From positions 1 through 43,667 of IMG/VR virus record IMGVR_UViG_3300023116_000092: a DNA stretch of 43,667 bases. One strand, 5' to 3'. Under the pieces are notes generated by a model. It did not search any database. It was not told where the DNA came from and saw nothing but the letters and a program-made list of their open reading frames with translations. The position numbers and the translations under genes are program-made. Below, in pieces: positions 124 to 30,500 of this stretch; the stretch's first letter is position 1; every line of letters starts with the position of its first letter. This DNA is from a virus.

Positions 124-290
124 TGCCGAGTAAGCACTATGATGTTTTCAAGCACCGCGTGAGGCAGAAAATGCCGAAGCGCATTCGTTATGCAACGGTG
201 TGTCGTAGGTGTAAAAAAGCGACAACCCAATCCGATAGATGCTTAACATGTCAAATTGATTTCGCAACATGGTGGGGGCGAGCGTATTGA
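123..290 (+). CDS. 55-residue zinc-ribbon mini-protein
   Basis: ATG at 123 overlaps the stop of the upstream gene, and the frame runs 55 codons to TGA at 288-290. The protein is basic and carries two CxxC pairs, C27/C30 (CRRC) and C40/C43 (CLTC), spaced as in a treble-clef or rubredoxin-like zinc ribbon. The rest is short, with an aromatic C-terminus (TWWGRAY). Its last 22 bases overlap the start of the next gene. It is one of several small zinc-binding proteins scattered through this module. Zinc binding is a confident reading of the cysteines; the partner (DNA, protein or virion) is unknown. Confidence 0.7.
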   Translation: MPSKHYDVFKHRVRQKMPKRIRYATVCRRCKKATTQSDRCLTCQIDFATWWGRAY

Positions 291-1681
291 TTGATTTAAA
301 CACAATTGATGATATGCTTCTTTATCATCCTCTACTCAAGACGGATATTCGCGGCGCATCATTTGGTGACGCACCTGCACCTATCTCGCAAGGTGAAGGT
401 CAACTCAACGCTAACCCTACACCTCCGCGCCCTAACGAAGTTGAGGAAGAAAAAGAAAAGAAAGAGATGGCTCGCGAAGTTGCGCAACAACTCAAGCGCG
501 CTCTCCCCGACGGCGGTTGGTTTCAGTCTATGTTTGGGCGAGGTGCAGAAGAATTGGTTAAAGATTTGCGCATGGCTCGCCGCGTCAACAAAGGCATGAA
601 AGACGCTATTGACCATGCTATTGAAGCCATACGCATTGCGAAGAAAGAAGAGGTAGAGGCCACACTTCAATCCATTGATTGGATAGACAAGCATCAATCA
701 ACCGTCCGTAATTTGGGCATTAGCGACCGTGATTTGCAGGCTCTCCGTAAATACGGAGGGAGCAGAGAATACGCGCTTCGTCGTGCTTGTGTGCAATGGG
801 AAAAAGCCAACGACATAATCAGCAAGTTGTTGTTGATTGAAGGAGACTTTGATGACGAGCAACGACAAATGTGGATTGACGCGCAAGAATTGAAAAAGAA
901 CTCAAAGAAAGAATGGCGTAACACGCTTCATTCAGTTGACAACATCAAAAAAACAGACGCCATTTTTTTGAGTAAGGCGCAGGCTATTCTTGAAGAACGA
1001 GGACCGTTACCCTCTAACGAGTTATGCGCCAGCATAGAGAAGGCTCGCAATCTCTCAGCCAATCGTTTAAGCACGCTTCTCAAAATGCATGGTGTTGAAT
1101 ACGATATTGAGCGCGTGGGGGCAACATGGGGTATTGTCCGCGATGACACCGTAATTTTCAAGGATGTGTGGGCATACGCCGCAGGTTTTCTTGATGCTGA
1201 CGGTTACATCACCATCACCAAGAGACTTGAGCCACGCGCAGGCTTCATCGCTACGGGTGAACGAGGTAAGTTGCATTGCGAACAGTTGCACAAAGCGCTT
1301 GGTTGCGGCGTGTTGCAAACTGATTTGAAAATCCACAAAAATAGTCGTCGCACTCAACACCGCCTTCAATTTTATTCCGAAGACGATTTGCGTAAATTGA
1401 TGAAAGGTATTCGTCCTCACTTACGCATGAAAAAAGGTCAAGCGGGAGCAGTTCTTGAATTGCTTGATTTGCGCGGCAGAAAAAGCGACATTGTGAAATC
1501 TCGTCGCGATGATTTGTTTCGCATCGTCAAATGGTTGAATTGGAAGGATGTTCCCGACAAGCGCGAAGAACTTCTTAAGGAGTGGAACATTGATGAAGCG
1601 GGAGTGCATGCGCTATTCAGTCGGGATGGTGAAACCCTTCGTCTTCTTGACGACGCTAACCGACTTGTGGAGATGATTTAA
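269..1681 (+). CDS. LAGLIDADG-domain protein with winged-helix-like region, upstream of portal
   Basis: 470 residues. Residues 1-60 look disordered (Pro/Glu-rich). Residues 60-235 are charged and helical. Residues about 236-290 have a winged-helix look. Residues 302-400 carry one LAGLIDADG motif, AAGFLDADGYI, with both acidic residues (D309, D311) kept. Single-motif LAGLIDADG proteins normally act as homodimeric DNA endonucleases or as domesticated DNA binders such as WhiA. There are no intein splice-site residues around the domain, so this is not an intein. The gene sits directly before the portal, where terminase or HNH endonuclease genes often lie in tailed viruses; a role in DNA recognition or cutting for packaging is inference. 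ATG at 269 overlaps the upstream gene by 22 bases; ATG 314 is an alternative start. The stop overlaps the portal start (TAATG). Confidence 0.75.
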   Translation: MVGASVLIDLNTIDDMLLYHPLLKTDIRGASFGDAPAPISQGEGQLNANPTPPRPNEVEEEKEKKEMAREVAQQLKRALPDGGWFQSMFGRGAEELVKDLRMARRVNKGMKDAIDHAIEAIRIAKKEEVEATLQSIDWIDKHQSTVRNLGISDRDLQALRKYGGSREYALRRACVQWEKANDIISKLLLIEGDFDDEQRQMWIDAQELKKNSKKEWRNTLHSVDNIKKTDAIFLSKAQAILEERGPLPSNELCASIEKARNLSANRLSTLLKMHGVEYDIERVGATWGIVRDDTVIFKDVWAYAAGFLDADGYITITKRLEPRAGFIATGERGKLHCEQLHKALGCGVLQTDLKIHKNSRRTQHRLQFYSEDDLRKLMKGIRPHLRMKKGQAGAVLELLDLRGRKSDIVKSRRDDLFRIVKWLNWKDVPDKREELLKEWNIDEAGVHALFSRDGETLRLLDDANRLVEMI

Positions 1682-3504
1682 TGGCCGAAGAACAAGGCGT
1701 GGTTGGCCGTTTTTTGTCAGCGTTGACAAAGCCGTTTAGTCGCCGAACAACCCCGGAACCACAGATGCCGCTTTGGAAGACGGGCATCCAAGAACCTGTT
1801 CTCGTTCAAGGTGTGTCCATACCCGCACTTTACGCGACCGTTCAAGAATCCATTATTCTCCGAACGACCATCAACACTCTATGTCAAGAGATTTTTCGTC
1901 GCGGGTATTATTGGGAGAAGAAGTTTCACAAGAAATGCACGAACTGCGAAGAAGAATATCAGCACGACACGGTAAGCGAATGTCGTATTTGCGGACAGGC
2001 TGATTTTGAAAGCCCGGATGCTGACCAAATCCTTTATCCTCGCTGGCTCATGAAACAGCGCAACAGCATGGACCAATCGTTCATTGAGGTGATGAAGGAA
2101 ATTGAATGGGACTTAGACATTGTTGACGACGCGTTCCTCTTGCTCATCAAAGAGTATTTCATTGACCCGAAGAGCGGTGAAATTGAGTTCTTCCGCATCA
2201 AAGAGTTGGTTCGTGGCGACCCGACTTTCATGCGTATTGTTGCTGATAAAGCAGGTAAGCGCGGAGGACGATACCTCCTATGTCCTGTGCATCGCGACAA
2301 GACTTATCCCCATAACGGTGACCACAAAAAGTGCGATGTGTGTTCTCTTCCTTTACAGGATGTCCACTACATCAACACCGCTGGTAGCGGCAAAACGCAA
2401 TACTACCTTGATGGCGAAGTGTTGCACCTCTCAAAGTTCAATCCGTCAAAACTCTACGGTCGTTCACCCGTCGCCAGCATGTGGCGTCAAGCCATGAGTC
2501 TTGCCGCGATGGACAATTACATCTACCTCGCGTATCAAAAGCGACGCATACCTCGTGGTGTTCTCGCTATCACCACCGATAACATTCAGTCAACTGCATC
2601 GTTTTGGAAAGGTGCAGAAGAAAAAATGGAGCGCGACCCACACTACATCCCAAAGGTTGGCGTTGAATCGGCAACAGGGCGAGGTAAAGTTGAGTTTGTT
2701 CGGTTTATGGACAGTCTTGACGAGATGCAATACGCGCAAGTTCGCGATGAAATACGCATGCGTATTGCCGCTTTCTACGGTGTCTCCAATGTTTTCATGA
2801 TGGACACAGGTAAGTCGGGCGGTTTGAACAACGAAGGCATGCAAATCCTTGTCACCAATCGTGCCGTTGAATCGGGGCAAAAGTTGTATTCGCGCGAATT
2901 GTTCCCACGGTTGCTTGAACAAATGGGAGTAAGCGATTGGTGTTTGACGCTTTACCCGAACGAGGAAGAAGATGAAATCACACGACTGCGACGCGACGAA
3001 CAAGAAGTCAACATCGCACAACGAATGCAAGCGCTTGGTTTCCAGCCCGAATTGACAGAGGATGCTGGAAGCGACATTCGCTTTGTTTACAAAAAGCCCG
3101 ACCCGCAAGAAGCCGCCATGCAACAACAGGCTGGTGGCGCGATGGGCGGCGGAATGCCGCCGATGGGAGGCGCTCCACCCATGCCGCCGGGGGGCGGCTT
3201 ACCTCCACAGGGTGGGGGTCCGATGATGCCGCCGGGGGCAGGGCTTCCCCCCGGAGGCGGAGGGCCTCCCCCCGGAGATGGTGGTCAAATCATGATGATG
3301 GAGAAGGCTATCGGGCTTGGTGAAAGCACAGGCCAACGCGAACGCGGGCCAGCGCCCATCAGTTCCGAAACCCAACAATCGGGCGCACCTTCAAGCAAAA
3401 AAAACCAGCGCGGGAGTAAAAAAACGCCACTTGAACAGGCTCTTGATAGCGTCCAAGCCGCGAAAGACCCGACTTCAAAACAGAAAGAGAGTGGTTTCCA
3501 ATAG
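1681..3504 (+). CDS. Portal protein with two inserted zinc clusters and a Gly/Pro/Met-rich tail
   Basis: 607 residues. The core has portal hallmarks: an alpha/beta segment with HLSKFNPSKLYGRSPVASMW (about 249-268), a long helical stretch (about 270-290) and IRMRIAAFYGVSNVFM (about 358-373). Portals form the dodecameric ring through which DNA enters the capsid and to which the neck attaches. Two metal clusters interrupt the N-terminal half: C86/C89/C101/C104, and C201/H204 with H211/H215 and C218/C221. These are not part of the standard fold. Residues about 480-535 are low-complexity Gly, Pro and Met, followed by a charged Ser/Lys tail, probably disordered. Position before the protease and capsid genes agrees with the call. 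Fold assignment is from sequence pattern only. Confidence 0.85.
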   Translation: MAEEQGVVGRFLSALTKPFSRRTTPEPQMPLWKTGIQEPVLVQGVSIPALYATVQESIILRTTINTLCQEIFRRGYYWEKKFHKKCTNCEEEYQHDTVSECRICGQADFESPDADQILYPRWLMKQRNSMDQSFIEVMKEIEWDLDIVDDAFLLLIKEYFIDPKSGEIEFFRIKELVRGDPTFMRIVADKAGKRGGRYLLCPVHRDKTYPHNGDHKKCDVCSLPLQDVHYINTAGSGKTQYYLDGEVLHLSKFNPSKLYGRSPVASMWRQAMSLAAMDNYIYLAYQKRRIPRGVLAITTDNIQSTASFWKGAEEKMERDPHYIPKVGVESATGRGKVEFVRFMDSLDEMQYAQVRDEIRMRIAAFYGVSNVFMMDTGKSGGLNNEGMQILVTNRAVESGQKLYSRELFPRLLEQMGVSDWCLTLYPNEEEDEITRLRRDEQEVNIAQRMQALGFQPELTEDAGSDIRFVYKKPDPQEAAMQQQAGGAMGGGMPPMGGAPPMPPGGGLPPQGGGPMMPPGAGLPPGGGGPPPGDGGQIMMMEKAIGLGESTGQRERGPAPISSETQQSGAPSSKKNQRGSKKTPLEQALDSVQAAKDPTSKQKESGFQ

Positions 3505-4574: not shown

Positions 4575-7500
4575 GTGCGCGAGAACGCCTCCCAATATCA
4601 CGCAAGAGTCGTCAACGAGTTTTACGACGCGCTGGTCAAAGGCGAAGACGCTCGCAATGAAGCGGCAAATGTTTTGTTTAGCGCGCAGAACTTATTGAAT
4701 CACGATATTGCTTACATTCCGCTTCGCAAGGAAGCAAAAGAATATCTCGCGACCATGATGGAAAAACCCAAGTATTACGAAGAAGCCAAAACCATCACCG
4801 CTCGCTCCACGAAACATGAGCCTTCTCGTCGCCCTCAACACCGAGCAATTCCTTTGTTCACAGTTGACGATTGGATGACGGCGAAAGAAAATGGTGACAT
4901 GAAAGCAATTGACAGAATGGTTCGCCAAGCAACAGGTTGGCGTATGCAAACCATGCGCAACACCGAAGAGCATGATGTGATTGACCAACCACATCATCCT
5001 ATTCGCGCACAAGGCTTGTTCCCCGACTACGATAACCTACCATCCTACGAAAGCATCCCCATCACGCATGGCTTGATGCGCAAAATGTTCGCGCGCGATA
5101 AAGCATTTGAGTTCAACAAAGCGATGGTGAAAGCGGCGAAAAAATTGCATCCGAGGTTGAAGAAGAATGACATGCTCGGCAATTGGAGCGGTAACAATTT
5201 CACCATTAACAAAATGTTCAACATTGGCTTTGAGGACTTCAAAAAGGATTACATGAAGAAGTTCCCCGAAGCCGAACAACAGGAGGAGATGAAACAATTT
5301 TTCATTTGGGCTAAGCAATGGGAGAATGAAGGAATACCTCGCGACCTTATTCTTCGTGTAGGGTTTCATACCGTTCAAAACTCCAAAGGAGAGAACAAGT
5401 TGATGGTGAGAAATGATGCGGGTAAGTTGTTCACCAAACTCGTCAAAGACAACGCCGCCATTCACCTTGAGAATGGGAGTTGGACCTATCCATCAATGGA
5501 GCGCATCGGCATTGACGCTTACCGAGACGGAGTTTACATGCTCCCCAATGACATGATTCGCGACATTATGCATTGGAAAATCAATGGCGCTGAGAGCGAA
5601 AAGGAACTCAACAACATTGTAGAAGGTAACACTGAGGTTGCTTCTTACATGAAACTCCACGGTCGTGTATTCAACGCCGCACTTCGTCACTCTTATGCGG
5701 GCGGCGCACTCAAACGCGGATATTCACACATGGCTCCAAACCGAATGTTGCAAGATGGCGAACTGCGCGCGAGATTGGAAGCGTCTCCAAAAGAGTTTGC
5801 TGATGAACTTTTTGAAAACCTCAAATTGGGTCGTCGTTTTTCTCTCATTCGCGATGTGAAAGAAGGCGTCGCCAGCAGTCTTGATTACGAAGCCGCCGTT
5901 GATGAATTGATTGGACAAGACCCCGACATTGAAGTTGAAGGATACGGACCTTATCCTCACTACATAATTGACGGGGGAGACGAATACATCGCGATGACTC
6001 ACGAACCCCCCGATATTAAAAAACTAAAGGAACACGGTTTTTTCGCTACTGAGAGCGGCGAAAAATTGTTTGAAGAGTTCGCAAAAAAAGCGGCACAACA
6101 AATGACGATTGAAGGTAAAGCCGACCTTATCATGGAAAGCATGAATGATTTTCACTACACAAGCGATTTTGACGAGGATTGGATAAATCCCAAAGACGCT
6201 AAGGAAGTCAAGACGCTTTTGGGCATCATGAGTGAGATGATGGGAGCGCATGGTGCGCAAAATGAAGAGTGGGATGACATAGGACAGTTGCGCGAGGATG
6301 CAATGCCGGGTGTTTGGTTTGATACGCTTCGCGGTGAAGAGGGGGTTCCCGAACGCTTGATTATGCCGTCGTTTCGCCAAGACTTTCCCAACAGGGCTGA
6401 GGGAACTCAAGAAGGCCCCAAAGCAGGTCGCAAGAAAGACAAGAGGAAAGACGCTTACAAAAAAAGTGGTAACGAGGCTCTTGATGAACAAAATAAAGCG
6501 CGAATGGAAACAGTAGCCGTCAAAAACGGATACACAGAAGGTCAAATCGCGAATCTCAAAAATAAGTTTGACAGAGACGAAGAAGTCTTCATTGAACTCA
6601 AAGACCAAAGCAACCCTGCCGCGGCAACGAGAGCCATTGGCGCTGAAGCGACGGCTGACATGGAGGATTATACCAAAGACATGCCTCTTCCGCGCGTTCC
6701 TGCAAGTGATTCGCTTGCTGGTTTCATCGGTGCTGAGGCAAACCTCAACCCCGATGAACGAGACGAATTGGGCATGTTAAGCATGGATGGTTTACACGAA
6801 GACCACAACATTGTTTCTAACCACCCCATGTCCGAAGTGCAACTTCTTCGCGATAACGCCATTACCAAAAATCACGACAGGCGTTTTTTTTCCGAACAAC
6901 TTAAAGGAAACACTCTCAAGCGGTTTGACTACGACCGCCTCAAGCCCGAACACACTCTTCGCATTCCTATCGGTATGATGGGGTCGCATGAGCCGCTTGA
7001 CATCGGCGACCCTGTTGCATTGGAGGATTGGAAGAGCAGAAATCATGCTTCTTCTCGTAGGAGTGACCCGACAGGACAATTCCGAGGGGCGGAACAAGTT
7101 CATCGCGAATTGACGGGTGCTGTTGATACAGAAGGTCGCCAACACTCTTCGTTTTACACGCTTGACGAATATCAAAAATACCTTGATGCTTTGCAACGCG
7201 GCGAGTTTTACGCTCCCGAACAATTGATGCATGGAGCGCTTACCAAAAATCAATTGCTTCGCGAAGTTATGGCGACAGAGGGTTTGGATATTGAAAACTC
7301 GGAGAGGCAAATGCGTAAGTTGAAGAAGCGAATTAAGGAATACGAAGAGCAGTCCAATGAAAACTCTCTCATGCCTTTCGGAATGACTCAACATGGAGAA
7401 GAGTATGTGATAGCCCCCGACATATCTGCACTCGCTTATGAGCGTAAAACCGAATTGACAAATGCTCTTCGTTTTGAAAAAGACGATGCTAAACGCGACA

Positions 7501-10418
7501 TTATTTACGCGAAAATCAATGAACTGCAACCCTATGTCAATCCGAGCGAATCCAACGAACCAATTGAAGACCATTCGCAACTTGCGCGACAAACACATGA
7601 TGTGAGTGAAGAGATATTCAACGGTATCGTCAAACCTGCGTTTGAGTTTCACTTTGGAAAGAAGGCTTTTGGCTATGAAGGCATGAGCGCCGAAGAGAAC
7701 AACGACGCGTGGGCGCACACCGTTTACGGTATGCACATTGCAGAATACATTGCCGCAAATCTCACGCCCGAAGAGCGTGATGAGATGATGCGTAAGGGTA
7801 TTACAGCACACGGTCACAAAAGCGCCAAATCCATCAGCAAATTGGTTGATAACGAGACTTTTCGTCGTCTCAACAACTTGCAAGTAAAACGCTCAAACTA
7901 CGACTCAAAAGGAGACTTCCGTCAACTTAGCGACTTTTTCCCCGAACATGTGAAAGGGCATGAAGTTGCTACGCATGTCTTTTCCAAAAACAACGGCGAC
8001 CGAAAGTCGGAGGCTATTTTCAAACGAGTGATGAAAGAAGTCACTCAAGCCGCGGAAGAGCAGGGCATTTCGTTTGAGGATGCGTTCATGGCTCGCTACT
8101 ACTCGCATAAAAAATTGGGTGAAGCGGTTGATGTCCCCGCGCCTTCTCAAGTCACAGACAGGACGCGAAGAGGGAGCCGTCATGTCAAAAGCGTGCTTGA
8201 CCTTATCAAGAACCCCAACAATTTACACAAAGAAATAAGCGACGCTTACCACATTCGCTATGATGAGGGTGGCGTTCACAAACTCAATAGCGAAACTCAC
8301 AATTTGCTTCACGGGGGCGATTCGGTAAAGTATCATGGCAAAGCCGTTTCAATGGACGATGAGTTTAACGCTATTCAAGATGTGATGGGGCATACAATCA
8401 AACATTTGGAAGGGGGTAGCGATAGGAACATTTTGGCGACGGGTATTCGTCTTCCCGCAGGAAAAATGCAAGAGAATATCTTCCCGCGAGGTAGCAAAGA
8501 GGATTTGACGCGCCGATATAAAAGAATGAGGGAGATGGCTCACTCTCTCGGTGATGACACGGTTGTAACGAATCCGAATCACACGCTTAGTGAAAAGACA
8601 TTGCGATTTGGCGGCGGCGGTCTTGACAAGGCTCCTTTGATACCGCTTTACACCAGCAAAGAATACATGAACAAACACGGCAGGTCTGTCCCTCTCAAAG
8701 CAACCATCAACAAAGACGCGCTTAAACAAGGCCACATCGTATTTCAATCGCCCGAAATCGCTCCAAACTGTTTACCGAACGGTATGCGTAAAAACATGTT
8801 TGTTTCGCGAGACGCGATGATGGCTGTCAACCCGATGCTCCAACCTCACACATTTGGATTGGAGAACTCATTCGGGCAACAAACCCCCTTTGATGCGCGA
8901 GCGCAAAGCGCGAATGACCTCACCGAACTCAAACTTGCTTCTGCTGATGTTGTCATTGATGATTCGCTTATCACCAAAGAAGACGGGAAGCCTCAACCTG
9001 TCAAGTTCATGCATCGCATTTTTGATTTGGAAGACATGCAACATTTGCGCGGATTCACAGGTGATTGGGTTATCTCACTCTACCCGCAAGGTGAGCATGT
9101 GATTGCGACCAAAGACAAAAAAGGCATCACGGCATACGGTGTTGATGGAGAGGTGAAGTTGGATGAGGCTATTTTGGAGGAAGCGGATAAGGTCTACGAA
9201 AAGGACTTCACGGTTCACGCGATTCTTCATGATGGACTGATGACTGTTGTTGACTTGCTCAAGACGGCGGACGAGGACACGCACAACATGCCGACGAAAG
9301 ACCGCATACGCCACCTTCGCGCTCAATACGAGTCCAGCGAACACATCAAAATGCCCGAACCTATCAACACCAAGCGTAGCGACGATGAAGGATTGCAGAC
9401 TGCAATTGAAGGGTTGCGGGGAGAGCAAAACATTGACATTCTTCTCCGCGATGCGAACGCGACTTACATGAAAGGAGAGCCTCGCCACCCCAAGTGGGTG
9501 TTGTTGAGCAAAGAGAAAATGGTTGATGTGGTCATCCTTTCGCGCGCTGGTAAAAACTACACCGTCGGTGTCGGTCCACTCATGCATCCCGAAAATTACG
9601 GGAAGCGCGCACAGGAACACGAAGGCGAGCATTACATGATGGTCGGCAACGCGAAGGGTCCGCGGGGTTTGAATGTCGGAGACTTCGCCACAGTCCGTTG
9701 CACAGGCGTCAGCGCTTCAAAGGGTGAATATCCTGTCTACCGCATACGCTCTGCAAAAATCACGGACAACGAACCGCTCGCCGCTGATAGCGTTGAAACG
9801 CTCGCGATTCTTGCTGGTGAGCAACATGTCGCCCAACGCGTGGGTATCAAGAAGGGGCAAATCGTCATCAACTTCCCCGCGTTTGATGATGATGTGATTT
9901 GTAAGACGCGCAAAGAAGAAGGTGTTTGGTTTGTTGAACCTCAAACCACGACATGGGGCAATGAATACCTTGTGCGTTTAGCCGAAGACCAACAGGTGTA
10001 TTGGGAGTATCAAGCGGCTTTGTTGTTGAAGAAAGCAGAAGTGGAGGAACCCGAATACGATGAGGTCAAACCCGAACCACCAGCAGGGCATAGCAAGAAA
10101 CCAAAGAAGGTGCTGGAAGAGGAAGAGGAAGTTATCAAGCGCGGTCTTGAATTGGCGGAGCGCGGATTAGAACATCTCGCTAAAGAGAAGATTACCAGCA
10201 CAGGTGTGCAGGGTTTGGGCATCGGATATGCAACCCCCGATGAACATCCGCGCGGACCTACTCAAAACATCAACGATGAAACGCTCCCCGATTTTGACCC
10301 CGCGGCGCGCAAAGACGATGAGTTAAAGCCCGCGACTGAAAAGAAAACCAAGCGACTGCGAAGCACAGAAGGCGAAGAAGCGGTGTTAGAGGATGATGGT
10401 GTCGTCGCGCTTCAATGA
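4575..10418 (+). CDS. 1947-residue multidomain virion-module protein with a degenerate ATP-dependent DNA ligase-like region
   Basis: Start is GTG at 4575 behind GAGGTGA (4564-4570). Residues 1-1300 are mostly charged and helical and match nothing I know. Residues about 1470-1737 follow the order of an ATP-dependent DNA ligase: a strand pair where motif I should be (GFTGDWVISLYP, 1493-1504), a motif III/IIIa-like TVHAILHDG then VVDLLKTADED and KDRIRHL, a motif IV-like ILLRDANATYMKGE, a motif V-like KWVLLSKEKMVDVVIL (1640-1655), then an OB-fold-like segment (LNVGDFATVRC ... YPVYRIRSAKI). The nucleotide-binding Lys of KxDG is absent, so catalysis is unlikely. The C-terminus is acidic and coiled. 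Genes between portal and protease often encode MuF-type or polyvalent proteins packaged into the head; that role here is inference. Confidence 0.75.
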   Translation: MRENASQYHARVVNEFYDALVKGEDARNEAANVLFSAQNLLNHDIAYIPLRKEAKEYLATMMEKPKYYEEAKTITARSTKHEPSRRPQHRAIPLFTVDDWMTAKENGDMKAIDRMVRQATGWRMQTMRNTEEHDVIDQPHHPIRAQGLFPDYDNLPSYESIPITHGLMRKMFARDKAFEFNKAMVKAAKKLHPRLKKNDMLGNWSGNNFTINKMFNIGFEDFKKDYMKKFPEAEQQEEMKQFFIWAKQWENEGIPRDLILRVGFHTVQNSKGENKLMVRNDAGKLFTKLVKDNAAIHLENGSWTYPSMERIGIDAYRDGVYMLPNDMIRDIMHWKINGAESEKELNNIVEGNTEVASYMKLHGRVFNAALRHSYAGGALKRGYSHMAPNRMLQDGELRARLEASPKEFADELFENLKLGRRFSLIRDVKEGVASSLDYEAAVDELIGQDPDIEVEGYGPYPHYIIDGGDEYIAMTHEPPDIKKLKEHGFFATESGEKLFEEFAKKAAQQMTIEGKADLIMESMNDFHYTSDFDEDWINPKDAKEVKTLLGIMSEMMGAHGAQNEEWDDIGQLREDAMPGVWFDTLRGEEGVPERLIMPSFRQDFPNRAEGTQEGPKAGRKKDKRKDAYKKSGNEALDEQNKARMETVAVKNGYTEGQIANLKNKFDRDEEVFIELKDQSNPAAATRAIGAEATADMEDYTKDMPLPRVPASDSLAGFIGAEANLNPDERDELGMLSMDGLHEDHNIVSNHPMSEVQLLRDNAITKNHDRRFFSEQLKGNTLKRFDYDRLKPEHTLRIPIGMMGSHEPLDIGDPVALEDWKSRNHASSRRSDPTGQFRGAEQVHRELTGAVDTEGRQHSSFYTLDEYQKYLDALQRGEFYAPEQLMHGALTKNQLLREVMATEGLDIENSERQMRKLKKRIKEYEEQSNENSLMPFGMTQHGEEYVIAPDISALAYERKTELTNALRFEKDDAKRDIIYAKINELQPYVNPSESNEPIEDHSQLARQTHDVSEEIFNGIVKPAFEFHFGKKAFGYEGMSAEENNDAWAHTVYGMHIAEYIAANLTPEERDEMMRKGITAHGHKSAKSISKLVDNETFRRLNNLQVKRSNYDSKGDFRQLSDFFPEHVKGHEVATHVFSKNNGDRKSEAIFKRVMKEVTQAAEEQGISFEDAFMARYYSHKKLGEAVDVPAPSQVTDRTRRGSRHVKSVLDLIKNPNNLHKEISDAYHIRYDEGGVHKLNSETHNLLHGGDSVKYHGKAVSMDDEFNAIQDVMGHTIKHLEGGSDRNILATGIRLPAGKMQENIFPRGSKEDLTRRYKRMREMAHSLGDDTVVTNPNHTLSEKTLRFGGGGLDKAPLIPLYTSKEYMNKHGRSVPLKATINKDALKQGHIVFQSPEIAPNCLPNGMRKNMFVSRDAMMAVNPMLQPHTFGLENSFGQQTPFDARAQSANDLTELKLASADVVIDDSLITKEDGKPQPVKFMHRIFDLEDMQHLRGFTGDWVISLYPQGEHVIATKDKKGITAYGVDGEVKLDEAILEEADKVYEKDFTVHAILHDGLMTVVDLLKTADEDTHNMPTKDRIRHLRAQYESSEHIKMPEPINTKRSDDEGLQTAIEGLRGEQNIDILLRDANATYMKGEPRHPKWVLLSKEKMVDVVILSRAGKNYTVGVGPLMHPENYGKRAQEHEGEHYMMVGNAKGPRGLNVGDFATVRCTGVSASKGEYPVYRIRSAKITDNEPLAADSVETLAILAGEQHVAQRVGIKKGQIVINFPAFDDDVICKTRKEEGVWFVEPQTTTWGNEYLVRLAEDQQVYWEYQAALLLKKAEVEEPEYDEVKPEPPAGHSKKPKKVLEEEEEVIKRGLELAERGLEHLAKEKITSTGVQGLGIGYATPDEHPRGPTQNINDETLPDFDPAARKDDELKPATEKKTKRLRSTEGEEAVLEDDGVVALQ

Positions 10419-10458: not shown

Positions 10459-11868
10459 ATGGCGATTCTTGCGGCCCCCTCTTCTTCCTCGGACCCCATC
10501 ATTTTGAAGGGGTTCGGCGATGATTTGGTTGTTGCTGGATACGCGTCAGTTGAGATGGTTGACAAGCAGGGCGACCTCATCACCCGCTCGGCACTCAAAG
10601 ACGCTTTCAGCAAGTTCATGAAAGCCGAAGCATTTCGCAATGTGCAACTCGCACACTCTAACATTCAAGTTGGTAGCGTTATTGATTCTTACACCGACTC
10701 CAACGGTCGCCTGTGGAAGTCCGAAGTGGACGACACGGGCATGTTCGTCGTCATCAAGTTGCGCGGCGACATTGAGAAGGCACGCGAAGTGGCTTCCGAA
10801 ATCCGCAAAGGGAACCTGCGCTCGTTCTCTATCGGCGGTCAAGCATTTGAGCGCGTCAACAAGAGCGACCAAACCCGCGGCGACTACCGCGAAATCCGTC
10901 GCATGGAACTCCATGAGGTTACGATTTGTGAGAAGGGTATCAACCCCGAAGCGCAGTTTCGCATCCTCAAGGAAGACACAGGTGATAATATGACCAACAC
11001 AATGAGCGAACTGCAAAGCGTCCTTGAACGCTTGTCAAAGAAACTTGACGAGAAAGAGGACAAAGACGAAGACAAAGAGAAAGGATTCATGCCCGACATC
11101 AACGACCTTGACGGCGACGGCGACAAAAAGGAGCGAATGCCCAAGAAGGAAAAGCCCCCAATGGACGACGACGAAGAAGACGACGAAGATGAGGACATGA
11201 TGTATTCCGATGACGAAGACAAAAACGACAAAGAGGATGAGAAAATGACGAAAGGAGACGACATGATTACGAGCGACTACCTATTGTGGCTTGAGCAAAC
11301 TGCAAAGAGCGCAGGGTTTGACCCCAATGCGGCTCGCGACCACTTCAACAAGGGCTACGGACCGGGCGAGTCGGGATACGACATGCGCGGACAGGGTTCC
11401 CTTGAAGGGGCTGGCGAAGACGATTCCGGCAAGCGCCCTCAACCAAACTTTGGTTCCGCACCAAGCGGTAACAAGAATGTCATCAAGAGCGAATACCTCA
11501 ACGCTGGAAATGTTTCACGGGCTGAGATTGAATCTGCTTACGAAGTGTTCAAGGCCGCGGCTACCGAGCAACAATTCAAGTCCGACTTGAACAACCACTT
11601 CACCGACCGCTTCCTCAAGGAGCAAAAGGCTGAGGCTGACGCAATCGCCAAGGCCAACTTTGACGCTCGCGAACCAATGGTTGAGTTGCAGAAGGCTGTT
11701 CTCGCGCTCAACGAACGCATTGACAATGTGTCTGCTGGCGGTTCAATGATTGCAAAGTCTGCGAACACCGCAACCGTTACCATTCCCGAAACTGCTGAAC
11801 TTGCAAACATGTCGTGGGACGATGTTCACCGACTTGCAGGCAAAGCACTCAAAGGAGGGGAATACTGA
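10459..11868 (+). CDS. HK97-type prohead maturation protease fused to acidic scaffold
   Basis: 469 residues. Residues 15-172 match the S78/U35 prohead protease family: His in LAHSN (H66), Ser in RSFSIGG (S124) and the downstream LHEVTICEKGINPEAQF block (151-167). The enzyme cleaves scaffold and other head proteins inside the procapsid. Residues 178-469 are scaffold-like: a coil (182-205), a very acidic stretch (about 198-265, with a DLDGDG metal-loop-like motif at 216-221) and long helices (355-425). The last 20 residues carry MSWDDVHRLA, shared with the protein at 3874-4224. The two functions are fused, as in several tailed viruses; two internal start sites could release scaffold alone. The stop overlaps the capsid gene (TGATG). 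Confidence 0.9.
   Translation: MAILAAPSSSSDPIILKGFGDDLVVAGYASVEMVDKQGDLITRSALKDAFSKFMKAEAFRNVQLAHSNIQVGSVIDSYTDSNGRLWKSEVDDTGMFVVIKLRGDIEKAREVASEIRKGNLRSFSIGGQAFERVNKSDQTRGDYREIRRMELHEVTICEKGINPEAQFRILKEDTGDNMTNTMSELQSVLERLSKKLDEKEDKDEDKEKGFMPDINDLDGDGDKKERMPKKEKPPMDDDEEDDEDEDMMYSDDEDKNDKEDEKMTKGDDMITSDYLLWLEQTAKSAGFDPNAARDHFNKGYGPGESGYDMRGQGSLEGAGEDDSGKRPQPNFGSAPSGNKNVIKSEYLNAGNVSRAEIESAYEVFKAAATEQQFKSDLNNHFTDRFLKEQKAEADAIAKANFDAREPMVELQKAVLALNERIDNVSAGGSMIAKSANTATVTIPETAELANMSWDDVHRLAGKALKGGEY
10981..10992 (+). promoter_or_regulatory. Internal ribosome site and ATG for a nested scaffold
   Basis: GGTGA at 10981-10985 is followed by ATG at 10990, in frame with the protease. The ATG falls exactly where the protease domain ends (codon 178). 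Spacing resembles the short spacings seen at accepted starts such as 14617. This mirrors the nested protease/scaffold arrangement of lambda C/Nu3. Confidence 0.4.
10990..11868 (+). CDS. Possible nested scaffold protein (in frame, 292 residues)
   Basis: If the internal ATG at 10990 is used, the product is residues 178-469 of the protease fusion: an N-terminal coil, the acidic segment, long helices and the MSWDDVHRLA tail. That is a complete scaffold without protease. Tailed viruses usually need many more scaffold than protease copies, and a nested start is a known solution. A second site, AAAGGAG with ATG at 11263, has a stronger ribosome match and would make a 201-residue form lacking the acidic stretch. 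Neither is proven from sequence; all product could instead come from the full-length fusion by proteolysis. Confidence 0.35.
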   Translation: MTNTMSELQSVLERLSKKLDEKEDKDEDKEKGFMPDINDLDGDGDKKERMPKKEKPPMDDDEEDDEDEDMMYSDDEDKNDKEDEKMTKGDDMITSDYLLWLEQTAKSAGFDPNAARDHFNKGYGPGESGYDMRGQGSLEGAGEDDSGKRPQPNFGSAPSGNKNVIKSEYLNAGNVSRAEIESAYEVFKAAATEQQFKSDLNNHFTDRFLKEQKAEADAIAKANFDAREPMVELQKAVLALNERIDNVSAGGSMIAKSANTATVTIPETAELANMSWDDVHRLAGKALKGGEY

Positions 11869-13034
11869 TGGCACGAAATTATGTAAGAACAGTTCAAGAC
11901 ATGGAGCGTTACTATTACGGTGGCGCTTCTCAGACCGGATACTCCTACGGAGCAGGTGACATTTTGAAGGCTGACGCGCCTTTGTTGTCCACCACCGCGG
12001 GAACCTATCAAGCAATCTATGGCCGAAAGGTTTGGTCGCAACTCAACCAAGAGTTCAACGCCTTCTCTATTCTGCCCAAGAAGCCTTGGGAGCGAAGTGG
12101 ATGGCGCATCCTCACGGAGCGCGCTTCGTTCACGAAGGGTGGCGGCATTGCCGAGAACGGCGTTCTTCCCGACACCTCCAAGCCGGAGTTCCTCCATGTG
12201 GCCGCAAAGCCCAAGACTGTCGCGCACACTTTTGACTTGTCCGAAGTGAGCATGTTCCTTTCCGACAAGGACGACGGTATGGGCGATGTGCGCCAAGTGT
12301 TGAAGGAAGAGATGGGTAAGCACCACGCTGAACACATCAACCGAATGCTCTTGCAGGATGTCACCACCACCGCAGGCAACGACTTTGAATCGCTTGACCG
12401 AATCACCTCTGACCCTGCCGTGATGACCACCACCCAAGCAGGTGTTGACGCTTTGACCGACCACGACATGTATTCCATCACTCGCGATGGTTCCGCCGCT
12501 TTCCACAGCGCGGAAGTGGATGTTGGTGGCGACGCTTCAACCGCCGCAACCAACCGCAACTTGTCCCTCAACCAAATGGACGGATTGTTCCAGCAACTTT
12601 GGACCCGTGGTGGTAACCCGAAGGTCATGCTGACGGGCTACGACACTTTGATGCGCGTTCAGCAATTGCTCCAATCCCAACAACGCTTCATGGACTCCAA
12701 GCGCGTTACCCCTTCCTACAACGGCGTGAAGGGTGTGCCGGGTCTTGAGGCTGGATTCATTGTCGCGACCTACAACGGCGTGCCTATGATTCCAACGAAG
12801 GACATGCCCGATGACACGGCAACCGCCAGCGGTTCTCTGTCGCGCATCTACTACTTGGACACGGACTACCTGTGGTTCCAAACTGCAATCCCAACGCAAT
12901 ACTACGAAAGCGGTATTGAAACGGGCGACCCATTCGCGATTAACCGTCTTGGACAAGAGGGGCTTTACCGAACGATGGGCGAACTTTGGTGTTCGTTCTT
13001 TGGCGCAAGCGGGAGCATTCGCAACCTACAATGA
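11868..13034 (+). CDS. Major capsid protein (HK97 fold)
   Basis: 388 residues. ATG at 11868 follows AAAGGAGGGG at good spacing and overlaps the upstream stop; a longer reading from 11814 would lie inside the scaffold gene and is not needed. Position directly after protease and scaffold, the length and the pattern all fit an HK97-fold capsid protein: an N-arm (1-60), a long helix region around KEEMGKHHAEHINRMLLQDV, NPKVMLTGYDTLMRVQQLLQ, a P-domain-like GFIVATYNGVPMIPTKDM and a C-terminal block ending LGQEGLYRTMGELWCSF. There is no long N-terminal delta domain, consistent with a separate scaffold. No internal insertion is obvious. Confidence 0.92.
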   Translation: MARNYVRTVQDMERYYYGGASQTGYSYGAGDILKADAPLLSTTAGTYQAIYGRKVWSQLNQEFNAFSILPKKPWERSGWRILTERASFTKGGGIAENGVLPDTSKPEFLHVAAKPKTVAHTFDLSEVSMFLSDKDDGMGDVRQVLKEEMGKHHAEHINRMLLQDVTTTAGNDFESLDRITSDPAVMTTTQAGVDALTDHDMYSITRDGSAAFHSAEVDVGGDASTAATNRNLSLNQMDGLFQQLWTRGGNPKVMLTGYDTLMRVQQLLQSQQRFMDSKRVTPSYNGVKGVPGLEAGFIVATYNGVPMIPTKDMPDDTATASGSLSRIYYLDTDYLWFQTAIPTQYYESGIETGDPFAINRLGQEGLYRTMGELWCSFFGASGSIRNLQ

Positions 13035-23392: not shown

Positions 23393-24576
23393 CGAAGGTT
23401 CGTTTGATTCGCAATGACGGTGAAGTGCTTGAAGTTGATGTGACGGGGTATAGCATGAATATCACGCGCTCCGTTCCTATTCTCAATGTTCCCGTTCTTG
23501 GTGAGCGCTACGGTGTTGACATGAACATGGTGAGCGCCGACTTCCGACTAAGCGTTATCCTCGCTGACGACGATTGCACCGCATCCAACACCGAAGCAAC
23601 AAGCGCCGTGGGGTCAATTGATTTTAGCGCACTCAAGGACAATAGCGGAGGTAGCCATGCTATCATGATGACAGGCGATGGCGGAGCGACTGACCCTGCT
23701 GACATCAACGGATATTTTTTTGAAATTGAAACGGCCTATACGGGACAGAACACCACGCGTAAACCTGTTCGCGTTGTGTTTGATTCAAGCACCGCGTCTC
23801 ATAGCGCGGTCAACAATCCACCTATCACTACCGTGGGCATCAGCGGAGCAACTACGGGCGCGCTCATTGCTTCGCGAATCAAGACTGCATTGGAAGGCGC
23901 GGCAGGGCAATACACCGACCAACTTACAACAGGCGGTGGGACGAACTTTGTTGATGCTTTCACCATCACCGCAGGCGTGGGTAAGAACCTGTCCTCCAAC
24001 TGCAAACTGACATTTACTGCGACTGAAAAAGGCAAAGAAGGCAACAACGAAACGCCTTCATTCAGCACAAACTTCGGTAAAAACACACCATTCTTTGAAA
24101 CATTTGGCGGCGGTAAAGACCGCACATGCAAAAGCGCGGGAGACAAACTCCAAGACCTTATCGCGTATGTCGGGAACGCCAGCCTTGCTGGTGTGTCGGG
24201 TCGTGCTATTGGTGGCCCTGCAAACCCCGACGACCCCAAAGCGTTGATTGAGGCAGACATTTCTTTGGCGACGCGTCAAACGGCTGACTACATCGTCGGT
24301 ATGCAATTGCCTTACAACTCCATTGTGACATCACCAAACGCCGCAACAGAGGACTATGTTGAACGCAACTTCATCATCGTGACAGGTCGCTCAAACGCTG
24401 ACGAGCAAGACTCGCACGCGAACACTCTTAGCGTCTCTACTTTATTTGACCCAACCAATCCATTCACAGGCATTGCGGGAACCGTTGTAGCAATGGGATT
24501 CTCTTACAACGCGGGTGAGAATGTTTACGAAGGCGACCTTACCTTCCAGCCGATTGATTTCATTGTGGGGACATGA
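23389..24576 (+). CDS. Distal tail-like protein with shared insertion module
   Basis: 395 residues; ATG 23389 overlaps the tape measure stop. The first 65 residues (VRLIRNDGEVLEVDVTGYSM, LGERYGVDMNMVSADFRLSV) and the last 90 (TADYIVGMQLPYNS, EDYVERNFIIVTGRS, YEGDLTFQPIDFIVG) look like a tube or distal tail fold. The middle (about 105-245) is an insert: YFFEIETAYTGQ, TGALIASRIKTALEG, LTFTATEKGKEGNNET. The same insert type appears in the connector at 15516. Proteins just after the tape measure normally form the tail end on which the hub sits. Exact equivalence to a distal tail protein is inference. Confidence 0.65.
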   Translation: MTKVRLIRNDGEVLEVDVTGYSMNITRSVPILNVPVLGERYGVDMNMVSADFRLSVILADDDCTASNTEATSAVGSIDFSALKDNSGGSHAIMMTGDGGATDPADINGYFFEIETAYTGQNTTRKPVRVVFDSSTASHSAVNNPPITTVGISGATTGALIASRIKTALEGAAGQYTDQLTTGGGTNFVDAFTITAGVGKNLSSNCKLTFTATEKGKEGNNETPSFSTNFGKNTPFFETFGGGKDRTCKSAGDKLQDLIAYVGNASLAGVSGRAIGGPANPDDPKALIEADISLATRQTADYIVGMQLPYNSIVTSPNAATEDYVERNFIIVTGRSNADEQDSHANTLSVSTLFDPTNPFTGIAGTVVAMGFSYNAGENVYEGDLTFQPIDFIVGT

Positions 24577-24577
24577 G

Positions 24578-27500
24578 ATGGCGGTTATTGGGCAATCAAG
24601 TCACGCGTTGTTCTTCAATGGCGTGAGCGATAGCGTCGTTTGCCCTCAAGGTGATTTTACACAAACAGGCCATAAGCGCGTGTTAAACGGTAGTGAAGCG
24701 CGCTCTTCTGCCCCTGTTATGCAAGAAGGCGACAGTCATCGTTTCGCTAAAGGCGTCAACCAAGTGTTGGATAAGTTCACGCTTGAAGCATGGGTGTCGC
24801 CCGACTGCGGCGGTGTTATCGCCAGCAAAGCAGGCTTGTTTGAATTGCGCATGGGTTCGGTGGACGCACCTGCCGCCGCTTCGTTTTCCGTCACTTTCAG
24901 CAATGGCGTATCGCTTATCGCGACAACGGCAAACAACTATCCTACCGCGGCAGGTTCGTTCATTTCCAACAATGTTGGCTACAACATTGGTCAACGCGAA
25001 CTGTATCACATCATGGGTGAGTTCAACGGTCAACAAATCAAACTCTATGTCAACGGCGAACTGATGGCCTCGGAACGCATGAACAAAAAGCACACTTGCA
25101 ATATCAACGACCAAGACCTGTTTATCGGTGGCGAAGGCGGAGAATACCGTGGCTACATTGAATCGGTGCATTGGAAAAGCGATGTGAGTGAAGCAAGCAC
25201 GCGCGCACAACCAACTCTTCGCTCAACCAGCACAATTGGGCTTTGGCGATTTGAAGAGCCTGTTGAGGTTGACAACACCGAGTTCAGCATCACATCAGCC
25301 GTGTCAGCAGGGGACACCAGCATCACCATTGGTGCTACGGCTTGTCAAACGCTTTACGAAACGGTGAGCGGTAAGTCCGATACTCTTTCAAGCAACTACA
25401 CGCTGGAAAGCCTCGGCAACTATCGTGTAGCCAACGCCGCGCATAGCGGCGGCGCGCAGGTCATCAGCGTGGCTCACACGCCGTTTAACCTACTCATCAA
25501 TCCAACAGGCACAGATACGCTCACAGGCATACCCAACGGCACGCCACCCGAACGCGTGCGGTTGAAGCAAATCAACACCAACGGAACAATCACGGTTGAG
25601 AGCATTCACCTTGACTTTGGAGTATCACCCGACACAGGCTCACGGGGAGTGCTTCATGCGCGCACCGCACTCAACGCAACCAACAACCTCGCCAGCGATT
25701 CAACAATGGTTCTCATTCGCTCTGACCTGTTGATTGATAGCATTTCGGGGAAGCCGTATCAAACCATCGGCACAGGCAGTCAAGCGATTGACCGGACAGG
25801 CGCGATGGTGATTGACGAGAGCGGCAACGGCTTTCACGGGTTTATGTTTTCGCGCAACATTGCTACGGGCAACAACTTCTCACCTTCGTCATGGTCGTTG
25901 GATAACAGGTTCAAAATTGGACACACGGGTCGCCACAAGTTTTCTCATCGCGAAGGCCATCCATACCTACGCCTGCTTCCACCCACTCACTCACAGGATA
26001 TAACGCGAACAATTGACGGCATTGCTGATGATGTGCTGGTTACCTTCGCTGGACCATATCTTGGACTCAAAGAACAGTTGCCCATCAACAGCAAAATTGA
26101 GGTCACACATACGGCTATCAATTCTCGCGTTTCTCAAATTATTGTCAGAACGCAAACAAAAGGAATAGTGAGAAATGGCTTGGCGAGCATTGATGCTCAT
26201 CGCGATGGTGTCATTGCAATATCGGTTGATGACATTCGCCCCTTCTTGCTCAAAGGTGGCGGCATTGATGTGTCCTCAACCGACGATGCTCAATACAAAA
26301 AACACCTTACACCCGAAACAGAGTCGCGTGTAGCCATCCTTGAAGTGTCGGGGCTGGATGCGGGGTATGTTGAAATCCACTACAACGCCATTGACCTTAC
26401 AGGAGGTAAAATGGGACTCAACGACCCTGCGTTGCTCATCACCAAAACTGTTCCCGATGCAGGTTCGTTGTTGAACGGCCAGCGCGTAGCGGCGCACATT
26501 GCTGATGCGGTGGGTGCAAACGCAAACATTCACGCCGCAGGCGGCGTTATCTATGCAACACCCGAAGACATTGGCGACGGCAACCTTGCGCTTCTTCCTC
26601 ACTATTTGGTGGGTGATAACACAGGCGGGATTGAATACGAAGAAGAGTTGGATGAGTCGCTCATCCCATCCAACTACGCACCTCGCGCAACAGGAGATGA
26701 ACCGCAGAAGCCGCCTCAAGGTGTAGGGACAACGAAGCACCCGTCAGCCTATCACAAGTTGCATCTGCAACCACGCAAGCGCGGAGCAAGCGACCCTCCC
26801 GTTGGAAGCGCACCAACTCGTTATCAAGAAAGCAAACAGTTCGCGTCGCAGAAAGGTGGCGCATTTGAAATGTTTGACATTATTGATAACGACAAAGACG
26901 GCGATAATCACATCATCATTGTGCAACCAAGCAAGCGCGAGCGCACTATGCAGTTGTCAAGAGTGACGAGCAACGCACTTGATGCAAGCGACCCTACGCG
27001 ATTTTTAGTTGAGTTCGTTCAATCGGTTTGCCGTATGTCTTCAATGCAAATCAAAGACTCTGCAAGTGGTCGCACTCTTTACATGGAAGGTAAAGGTTTG
27101 ATGGATGATGTGTCCGACCAAACTGTTTCTTACACAGGCGACGGTAGTCCCGATTCACACATTGTCAAAGAGATTCAACCGGGCGCACCTGTCGTGTCGG
27201 TCACGCTTGGTGGTGCTGGTCAAGGCGCTGTCAACACGAAGCCGACATGGGACCCTGCGGCGTTGTCGCGCGTTGGTTGGAACACTCGCCATTCAACAAG
27301 CGCGCAAGTGAATAGCGTTGACACATCTCTATTGCAAATTAGCGTCAACCCGCTCAACAACCTTTCTCCTTCGCTTACAACATGGGGGACATACGGTTTC
27401 CCCGCCACGGGGCGCGTTTATTTGCCGAACGGTGCAAGTGCTGAATACACCAGCAGAACGGGTGTTTCGTTTCAATTCGCAAGCGGAGTGCATTTTGGAA

Positions 27501-30500
27501 GTGGAAAGTTTGAACTCTCTAACGGAAGAGAAGTTGGTTCGTTTGTTGATTGGGTAACGCAAACAGGTGTGACTCTTGGTGCAACTCTTCTTCTTGATTC
27601 GTCGTTCAGTTCTGCTTCTATTTGCGCCGACGGAACCACCGTCAATGACCGTCTGTTTCAGTCTATTGGTTCAGTCCAGCACGATTATCAATTGGGGACG
27701 CAATATGCCAGCACGCGCGCGCTTGTTGAAATCCCACTATTCCCTCAACAATTTTTTGAAGACCGCGACGCTGGTGTATTCCCCGGACCCGACAACAGTA
27801 TGAAATTGCACCTTGACGCAACCATGACTGCTCACACATGGAATCCTTCTCCGGTCGGTCGTCGCGCACCCAATTATCCTGCTAACGACTACGAGGCTTA
27901 CGGGCAATACCAATACCGTCTTGTCAATGATTTACCCATACGCGCAACAATACGACGATACGAGCGAAAAGGAAGTAACACCGAACTTTTAATTCAAGAA
28001 GGCTCACCTCGCATTCCCGAATCGGACTTTAATGCCGCTGGTCCTGTTCGCGGAGTTAGCACAGGGAGAACACGGCGAGTTATTTTAGGCAACGGCGAGT
28101 GGGCGTATTACGAAAAAAACGGCATTACTATCACACTCAGCCATACCGCAGGTCATTCAAGTGAAGACTTCTTTTCGTCGTTAGAGGTTGGCGCTCAAAT
28201 CATTGTTGGCGCGGTTGCAGACGGCAATAACTTTCCAATGACAGGTGACGACAATTATGCGTCATCTGCTCAAGAATACCGACGACCGTTTTACTACGAC
28301 CGAGGTAGCGTGATGACACAGGGTGGCAACCTTGACTACGGACTCCGCCAATATGTCAGCGCGGTTGAGTTCAAGGCTGGTCCTCTTGCAAATCCCCACC
28401 TTGCTCGTATTGAAACGCGCGGAGCAAAACTCACTTTGATTGGACTCAAAACGGGGCAAACTTTCTATTTTGAAGGCAACTTGCCCAAAGGACACCTGCC
28501 GACCAACTACGCGTTTGCCGCTATCAACGAAGCCACAGGTCGTAAGTATCAAATTACTTACAACTCATCAACCGCAGAAAATGAATTAACAACTGCGGCA
28601 CACCCTGTTCTTGATAGCGGCGCACCAAACCTCGCGATAAACGATGTTATCACCGTCATCGGCATTTACGCGACCAATGCAACAACACTCCCTCTCAAGC
28701 AAGAAGACGGCATCGCTAACTCAACATGGAACAATCCATATTGCGGCGGCGGTTTGCGCTATGGTGATACGGTTTGGATGAACATGCACTACACCAACCC
28801 GCACGCAATTGAGGGTATGTTTTGTAAGTCGCGAGGTGTTCTTAACGAATACGAGGTGTGGAGTGGTTTCAATGGCGGTAAGGGTGCGTTGGGAGTTGAA
28901 GCGCGCGACACTCTTCCTCTTGAGAACTTCCTTATTGGCGATACTTGCATTGAGACTGCTCGCAATTTTGTTCAACATGTAAACAAAACCATTGAACTCA
29001 ATTGGGCTGAACTCGGACACACTACATCTACTCCTGTGGTCGCATACCTTGACCCCTACCTCAGCACCGAGCAACACGCTCGCGTTTTGCTTTACGATGT
29101 TGAACATGACCGCGAGTTTATCGCGTTTCACGATTTGCACATGCAAGTTCAAACGAGTGCAACAACTCCAACGATTGAAGGTCTTGATGTAGCGGCTGGA
29201 TTCAAAACACAACGCAAGGATAAAGCCACAACATCAAGCACCGACGCGCAAACCATTAACAGCGTCACCTACAATCTCATCAAAGACGAAGGTAAGTCTC
29301 AATTTGTTGAAGGCGCATACGCTCACAAATCATGGTGGTTGATGGACAACGCGTATTTGGCTACATCGGGTGTTGCGTCTAACCATTATGTTCGCAAAAC
29401 GCGTGTTACAGAACATACAATTGCTTTCGGTGACGAGTCTGTTGAATACGGCCAAGGACGACTTGCACAGTCAACTCTTGATATTGACGCGGCGGCAACC
29501 CGACATGCTGAAACGGCAGACCATGATGTGTCCGAAGCCATCGTTGACGACACGACAGGGCATTACGAGTTTAGCGCTACATTCTTTGACTCACCCGAAG
29601 GAACACGCGTTATTTCAGCCTTCCTTTGTTTGAAGGGTAAGCGTGCTACAAACAACAGCATTGCTGATAGTCGGTTAAGTCAACTCCCCCATTGGACTGA
29701 AATGGATTTTGTTCGCCGCCTCACAATTGACATGGGCGAAGTTGGATTGCGCGAAGGTGTCACAGACATTGAAGCGGCGGCTCGCGAAGTTGTCCGTCTC
29801 ATTAACCAAGGCGGTGCGCCCAACGGTCGTAGTAGTCAACGCCGTCCATCCGACCAATACGCAGGCGAAGGAGAACGGTTTGACATCAATCGTCGTTCTG
29901 TATCAGTCGCAGGTAGCGACACAAATGAACCAACTGACGCTACCGCTATTCACCATCATGCAGACTTTGCAGTCACAGGGTCAACTTACGACCCCGCTCC
30001 ATTTTGGAATACAACAACTGCGTTCACATCATTTGACCGTGGTTCACACATGGGATATTTGCGCGCTCACATTGGTCGCGTAGTTGAGGATGCAAACGGC
30101 AACGAAGGGTATAGCATCGTTATTCACTCAACTGTTCCCGGTGCAACAGGACGCAATTTTTGTGCATGGTTGGACAATAGTAAATCACAGGTTGAATACA
30201 AACCTCAATTTCTTATTGGACATGGTGGGCGCTTCCGCAATTTCTTTTGTTCTCCACCCGAAATGGCTGGTGAAAACATGCATCCAGCACCTATGCCGAT
30301 TGACAAAAACGGCAAACCGTTTGCGCCAATTACAACCTTGCGCGAATATGTAGCATTGGACGAAGCCGCTGATGAGTTCATCACCAACCTTCACCTTGGA
30401 TACGAAGCCAACTACAACACAACGACGGACGGTCAAGAAAGCCCCAACACAGGCGCTTCAACAGGGCGCTCTTCTAACAGCGGCGCAATGGAGTCATTTG

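Follow-up and report, generated by a model that had tools for sequence, protein, structure and literature searches.

A ligase-like domain, very probably without ligase activity, in a giant head-module protein of putative magrovirus-like archaeal tailed viruses

What might a DNA ligase fold be doing among the head genes of a tailed virus? The question is raised by IMG/VR virus record IMGVR_UViG_3300023116_000092, a stretch of 43,667 bases (hereafter the window) whose source is an uncultured marine archaeal virus. Between the genes for the portal and the prohead protease, an open frame at 4575-10418 encodes a giant protein of 1947 residues, for which an earlier note, made from the letters of the DNA alone, had proposed a catalytically dead ATP-dependent DNA ligase fold at about 8970-9800. 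That interval does include the domain in question: residues ~1474-1732 form a pair of nucleotidyltransferase (NTase) and OB domains resembling those of archaeal ATP-dependent DNA ligases, and we regard homology of this C-terminal domain to the archaeal enzymes as practically certain.

Five viral scans of IMG/VR were used to collect relatives, and the seeds for three of these were domain alignments of increasing divergence. Together the scans gave 129 distinct domain sequences; in the final one, 403 matching stretches were confirmed and 80 retained. The relatives are all metagenomic records lacking estimates of completeness, and hosts were assigned from gene content and the literature. A search of genome contigs confirmed no copies in host genomes. 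Outside this collection, PhiPA3 gp022 gave a weak tblastn match (E=0.1), and the 827-residue viral protein A0A516LT18 was by far the top structural match in BFVD for window 8928-9899 (E=3e-21, 19% identity); the latter possibly represents part of a giant protein from the same family.

The fold was recovered only with a deep alignment. Searched singly, the domain of the window gave no Pfam or PDB ligase match, and an AlphaFold model of residues 1452-1947 built from 28 close sequences was poor (pLDDT 51.6, with weak Foldseek matches); alignment depth was therefore decisive, and that model is superseded by one built with 86 sequences, which reached a pLDDT of 88.4 and a pTM of 0.80. The Pfam model DNA_ligase_A_M (PF01068) matches 49 of the 86 diverse members at E<=0.01 (best 4e-7), and two models for folds of the same superfamily, snurportin cap-binding and mRNA_cap_enzyme, match 14 (best E=1.6e-5) and 2 of them. 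When PDB was searched with a profile of 37 divergent members, the top five matches were all archaeal DNA ligases (best E=1.2e-7). Comparison by hhalign with 33 archaeal ligases scored 95.8% (E=7e-9) over 258 columns spanning both the NTase and the OB domain, against at most 2.5% for reversed, column-shuffled, portal and major capsid protein (MCP) alignments. At the level of structure, the top PDB matches in Foldseek are again archaeal ligases, led by the Thermococcus enzyme 4eq5 (E=1e-13, probability 1.00, TM 0.60 by query length), with TM values of 0.59 for 2cfm and 0.57 for 3gde, and viral ligases and capping enzymes are matched in BFVD. The two-domain ligase-like fold proposed in the earlier note, and its expectation of a high-probability match to PDB ligases across both domains, are thus borne out.

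The same alignments show how far the active site has departed from that of a ligase. In the hhalign register, EIKYDGAR of the ligases lies opposite SLYPQGEH of the window, so that the equivalent of the nucleophilic motif I lysine is Y1503. The earlier note had sought this position in GFTGDW, which is some 10 residues too early and constitutes a separate element (residues 1493-1498); at the corrected position, however, the lysine is indeed missing, and from every homologue, the column holding Trp in 84, Tyr in 30, Phe in 8, Ile in 7 and Lys in 0 of the 129 sequences. The surrounding region forms a graded series among relatives, from SKWYDGxR through SSWPEGER and SLYPQGEH to SHIPKGEP. The lysine beside the site in the SKWYDG clade (that of L241) was considered as a catalytic residue and rejected: it is replaced by Ala or Ser in 8 of 61 members and is absent elsewhere.

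Other catalytic columns have changed across the same 129 sequences. The motif III glutamate is replaced by Ile (95), Val (31) or Leu (3), the motif IIIa phenylalanine by Ile, Val, Leu, Met or Ser, and the motif IV lysine by Arg in 125, with Lys kept in 4; both motif V lysines are gone from all 129, their columns holding Leu, Val or Met and Arg, Ser, Thr, Asp, Asn or Val. Scaffold positions, in contrast, are retained: the glycine of motif I (128/129), the aspartate of IIIa (129/129), the tyrosine (128/129) and glycine (129/129) of motif IV, and the KW of motif V (129/129). The viral domain accordingly shares with archaeal ligases (4eq5, 3rr5, 2cfm; PF01068) the NTase and OB domains, the motif order, a PIRPM-like start and these scaffold residues, whereas it differs from them in its catalytic positions, in the absence of the ligase N-terminal domain PF04675 and in its setting within a head-module protein of ~1950 residues. 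A set of polar residues is also invariant in the family (H1480, R1481, R1577, R1582, D1626, E1635, R1637, H1638 and K1640). Judged from these columns, the chemistry is systematically lost, the fold is retained and a new invariant set around RHPKW has been gained; as the earlier note had it, the domain is almost certainly dead as a ligase.

Loss of catalysis has not been accompanied by relaxed constraint. Between the window and its closest relative, L003, the domain has a dN of 0.052 and a dS of 0.62 (ratio ~0.08), as against a dN of 0.23-0.24 for residues 1-1451, and across the pairs compared the dN of the domain is 4-13 fold below that of the upstream part. The ligase-like domain is under strong purifying selection. 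Four further relatives (L011, L015, L018 and L022) are 86-96% identical to the window in the portal, 89-91% in the MCP and 82-87% in the domain, with 22-30% identity over residues 61-1451. In deep relatives the domain is still ~31-46% identical, and for 10 of the 12 deeper relatives (such as L241 and L240) the N-terminal part went unrecognised by a profile built from the window clade. Residues 1-1451 matched no Pfam or PDB family. Residues 61-1451 (window 4755-8927), with head genes of high conservation on either side, count among the most variable coding sequence; within the window clade they are homologous, with invariant Trp, His and Gly positions. Between L011 and window 8982-9884, the ligase-like region has a dS of 0.89, far below the saturated dS of residues 1-1000 in the same gene, a contrast that would fit recombination in which lineages exchanged the C-terminal part.

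The position of the gene is constant. The protease is the next gene after the giant frame in all 112 loci with enough sequence, at a spacing of between -64 and +51 nt, and 81 of 82 loci have the portal upstream, which confirms the slot described in the earlier note. Placed among the portal-terminase head genes, as are the genes of packaged polyvalent and MuF effector proteins, the giant gene likely encodes a head-assembly or virion protein.

Among deposited phage records, the MCP and portal of the window are nearest to those of HVTV-1, HCTV-1 and HCTV-5 (32-33% identity for the MCP, ~30% for the portal). The window itself carries only the structural part of the genome, and further evidence on the virus group comes from 18 long relatives, which encode PolB (15/18) and a Cpn60/TCP1-family chaperonin (16/18), and in one examined more closely an ERCC4 nuclease. 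This is gene content described for Poseidoniales magroviruses (PMC10160649, PMC5332604), and together with the literature it may point to magrovirus-like archaeal tailed viruses as the source group.

An ATP-dependent DNA ligase is listed among the replication genes of magroviruses in ICTV profiles and a survey (PMC12999244, PMC10768690, PMC10160649), and in a group A magrovirus an 'ATP-dependent DNA ligase' gene stands beside the prohead protease gene (PMC7318539). Because the same adjacency holds in 112 of 112 loci here, we read the published ligase, described as a replisome enzyme, as the dead head-module domain of the giant protein, which at least in group A is likely correct. When the 18 long relatives were searched with PF01068, 17 gave matches, none of them outside the giant frame (which in G028 is truncated at the contig end), and in 11 of these 17 the match exceeds the Pfam cut-off once neighbouring matches are joined; G002, the closest of the 18 to the window, has no PF01068 match at all. 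Neither an NAD-type ligase nor PF04675 was found in the 18, and an archaeal ligase protein used as query matched only the giant frame. PF01068 is blind even to the giant's own domain in the close clade of the window, and the absence of a divergent second ligase is therefore not established there. The earlier note had held that such a fold was not a described part of the tailed-virus head. Magrovirus annotations appear already to include the similarity, as a working replisome ligase; we found no paper remarking on its inactivity or on its occurrence within a giant head-module protein, and to that extent the claim stands.

If not ligation, what could the domain do? We propose that it no longer seals or adenylylates DNA and would act as a fixed, non-catalytic binding module. 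Together with the acidic tail it would make up a docking module of the C-terminal ~490 residues, attaching the protein to some conserved component of the head during assembly, for which the portal, the protease and the procapsid interior are candidates. The fast-changing N-terminal ~1400 residues would face the host and would probably be packaged and delivered with the DNA, like the packaged multidomain proteins of bacterial phages. We give this explanation as a whole about an even chance; that the N-terminal part is delivered cargo, a suggestion by analogy, is more tentative. Several points weigh against the proposal: the conserved surface would suit recognition of DNA or nucleotides no less than docking to a protein, the invariant polar residues might together make up a novel catalytic or binding site, no effector family was matched by the N-terminal part, and a ligase-like domain was not detected in the Druskaviridae proteins of the same slot (HVTV-1, HCTV-5) or in those of vir519.

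Under the main rival to docking, the domain would read nucleic-acid ends or nucleotides (a nick, the genome terminus or a modified 5' end) without catalysing anything, and would hold the packaged end of the genome near the portal. NTase-OB pairs of ligases clamp nicked DNA, and the cap-binding domain of snurportin is itself a dead, lysine-less member of the covalent-nucleotidyltransferase superfamily. The matches of 14 of the 86 members to the snurportin m3G-cap-binding model (PF21974) extend over motif I to IIIa, although snurportin-1 is eukaryotic and binds caps, and the viral domain has an OB domain after the NTase. An aromatic residue at the lysine position in 122 of 129 sequences and the invariant W1498 could moreover stack on a base. 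Against such a reader stand the acidic NTase part (net charge -9), the loss of the usual nucleotide contacts and the failure to find PF04675 in the relatives' records. Because the NTase part is acidic and bulky residues occupy nucleotide-contact positions, binding of ATP or of DNA in general is disfavoured, and the 'nucleotide binding' suggested in the earlier note is not favoured either, since the base, ribose and phosphate contacts are replaced (Lys by Trp or Tyr, Glu by Ile or Val, Phe by Ile or Val, the motif V lysines lost); its other suggestion, binding of DNA ends, is no more than a possibility. An end reader in the full sense seems to us unlikely, and whether the domain docks rather than engages nucleic acid is evenly poised.

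Much less can be said for the remaining explanations. The invariant polar residues, lying in a strongly selected domain, might instead support a new enzymatic activity on the ligase fold, but they may equally be structural or serve docking, and we know of no ligase-fold enzyme that uses such a set; this is quite improbable. A working ATP-dependent ligase of the viral replisome would agree with the published listings and with the failure to find any other ligase in the 18 long relatives, yet the motif I lysine, the motif III glutamate and both motif V lysines are absent throughout, the motif IV lysine is absent from 125 of 129 sequences, and the domain is fused into a head-module protein adjoining the protease, so that we consider it very improbable. 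Scarcely credible is the idea that a gene fusion has left behind a functionless remnant that evolves neutrally: lost catalytic residues are what such a remnant would show, but the dN of the domain is much lower than in the other parts of the protein, dN/dS is ~0.08 in the closest pair, and across all relatives the domain keeps one location in the gene, and the gene one location in the genome.

For the docking explanation, the nearest precedents are packaged proteins of other viruses. According to the portions consulted of Iyer et al. (2017, PMC5512222), ADP-ribosyltransferase (ART) and MuF-fusion proteins are among those described or predicted to be packaged and injected, and Mu gpF carries an inactive PBECR domain. 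With these 'polyvalent' and MuF-fusion proteins, as described there, the giant protein shares very large size, a portal-adjacent place in the packaging module, a combination of conserved and diversifying parts and the precedent of an inactive enzyme domain. It differs in that MuF, ART, zincin and PBECR domains were not detected in it and in being known from genes alone; a ligase fold is not mentioned among these proteins in the same portions of that source. The head module of Druskaviridae (HVTV-1, HCTV-1, HCTV-5) has the same order of portal, protease and MCP, whereas the portal-to-protease slot of HVTV-1 and HCTV-5 holds ART, MuF-like and zeta-toxin/ParB-nuclease proteins. The zeta-toxin/ParB-nuclease proteins are ~1300 residues long (slots at L161 7223-16693 and L163 6230-14564; HCTV-5 and HVTV-1), and the slot proteins of these two viruses are possibly a set of packaged effectors in haloarchaeal viruses.

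Should the only ligase-family gene be a dead head domain, these viruses would have to rely for the sealing of their DNA on the host's enzyme or on one that has escaped recognition. It would also be, to our knowledge, the first case of a ligase fold taken up as a constant component of the head module in a tailed virus, and its coupling to a protein that ranks with the most variable they encode would make the giant protein a likely arms-race interface with uncultured archaea. Taken further, in a scenario that we hold to be doubtful, magroviruses may possess no replicative ligase, whether through loss or from the outset. The sole ligase-family gene they carry may then have been converted into a non-catalytic head module present throughout the group, a pseudo-ligase by which a hypervariable giant protein, and perhaps also the end of the packaged genome, would be held within the capsid and so delivered to archaeal cells.

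Table 1. Features of the giant gene and its neighbours, in window coordinates.
Feature	Position	Strand	Basis or remark
Giant head-module protein with ligase-like domain, 1947 aa	4575..10418	+	GTG start, open frame; portal-protease slot also in relatives
Hypervariable part, residues 61-1451	4755..8927	+	22-30% identity where portal 86-96%; no Pfam/PDB family
NTase-like domain, residues ~1474-1646	8994..9512	+	AlphaFold/Foldseek; PF01068 matches in relatives; hhalign
GFTGDW, residues 1493-1498, family-specific element	9051..9068	+	G and W in 129/129 sequences
Motif I equivalent YPQGEH, residues 1503-1508; Y1503 in place of catalytic Lys	9081..9098	+	hhalign register
Motif III equivalent HAI, residues 1548-1550; I1550 in place of catalytic Glu	9216..9224	+	Column counts, 129 sequences
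Motif IIIa equivalent VVDLL, residues 1558-1562; V1559 in place of Phe, D1560 retained	9246..9260	+	
Motif IV equivalent DILLRDANATYMKGE, residues 1621-1635; R1625 in place of catalytic Lys	9435..9479	+	
Motif V equivalent RHPKWVLLSK, residues 1637-1646; L1643 and S1645 in place of Lys pair; RHPKW invariant	9483..9512	+	
OB-like domain, residues ~1647-1732	9513..9770	+	AlphaFold strands; Foldseek/hhalign coverage
Helix and strands after OB domain, residues 1733-1775	9771..9899	+	AlphaFold model
Acidic, charge-rich conserved tail, residues 1776-1947	9900..10415	+	70-93% identity in close relatives; net negative charge
Portal protein	1681..3504	+	phrog_18178 E=6e-73; PF04860
S78 prohead protease, directly 3' of giant gene	10459..11868	+	PF04586 E=2e-10
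MCP	11868..13034	+	ORF from 11814, conserved part from 11868; phrog_24667 E=1.5e-53; PF17236

Some other genes of the window are also of note. Directly 5' of the portal gene, window 269-1681 encodes a 470-residue protein, part of which resembles an HNH endonuclease (phrog_5046, E=8e-11) and which is syntenic in relatives. A 5136-residue frame at 24515-39925, 3' of a tape-measure-like gene, matches PF13385 (E=7e-10) close to the N-terminus, in a laminin-G/concanavalin-like domain, and is probably a giant tail or adhesin protein. In comparisons of the protease (10459-11868) with those of L018 and L029, good alignment in the best segment is limited to the N-terminal ~193 residues (93%), which suggests that its C-terminal part is variable, and perhaps scaffold-like, in some relatives.

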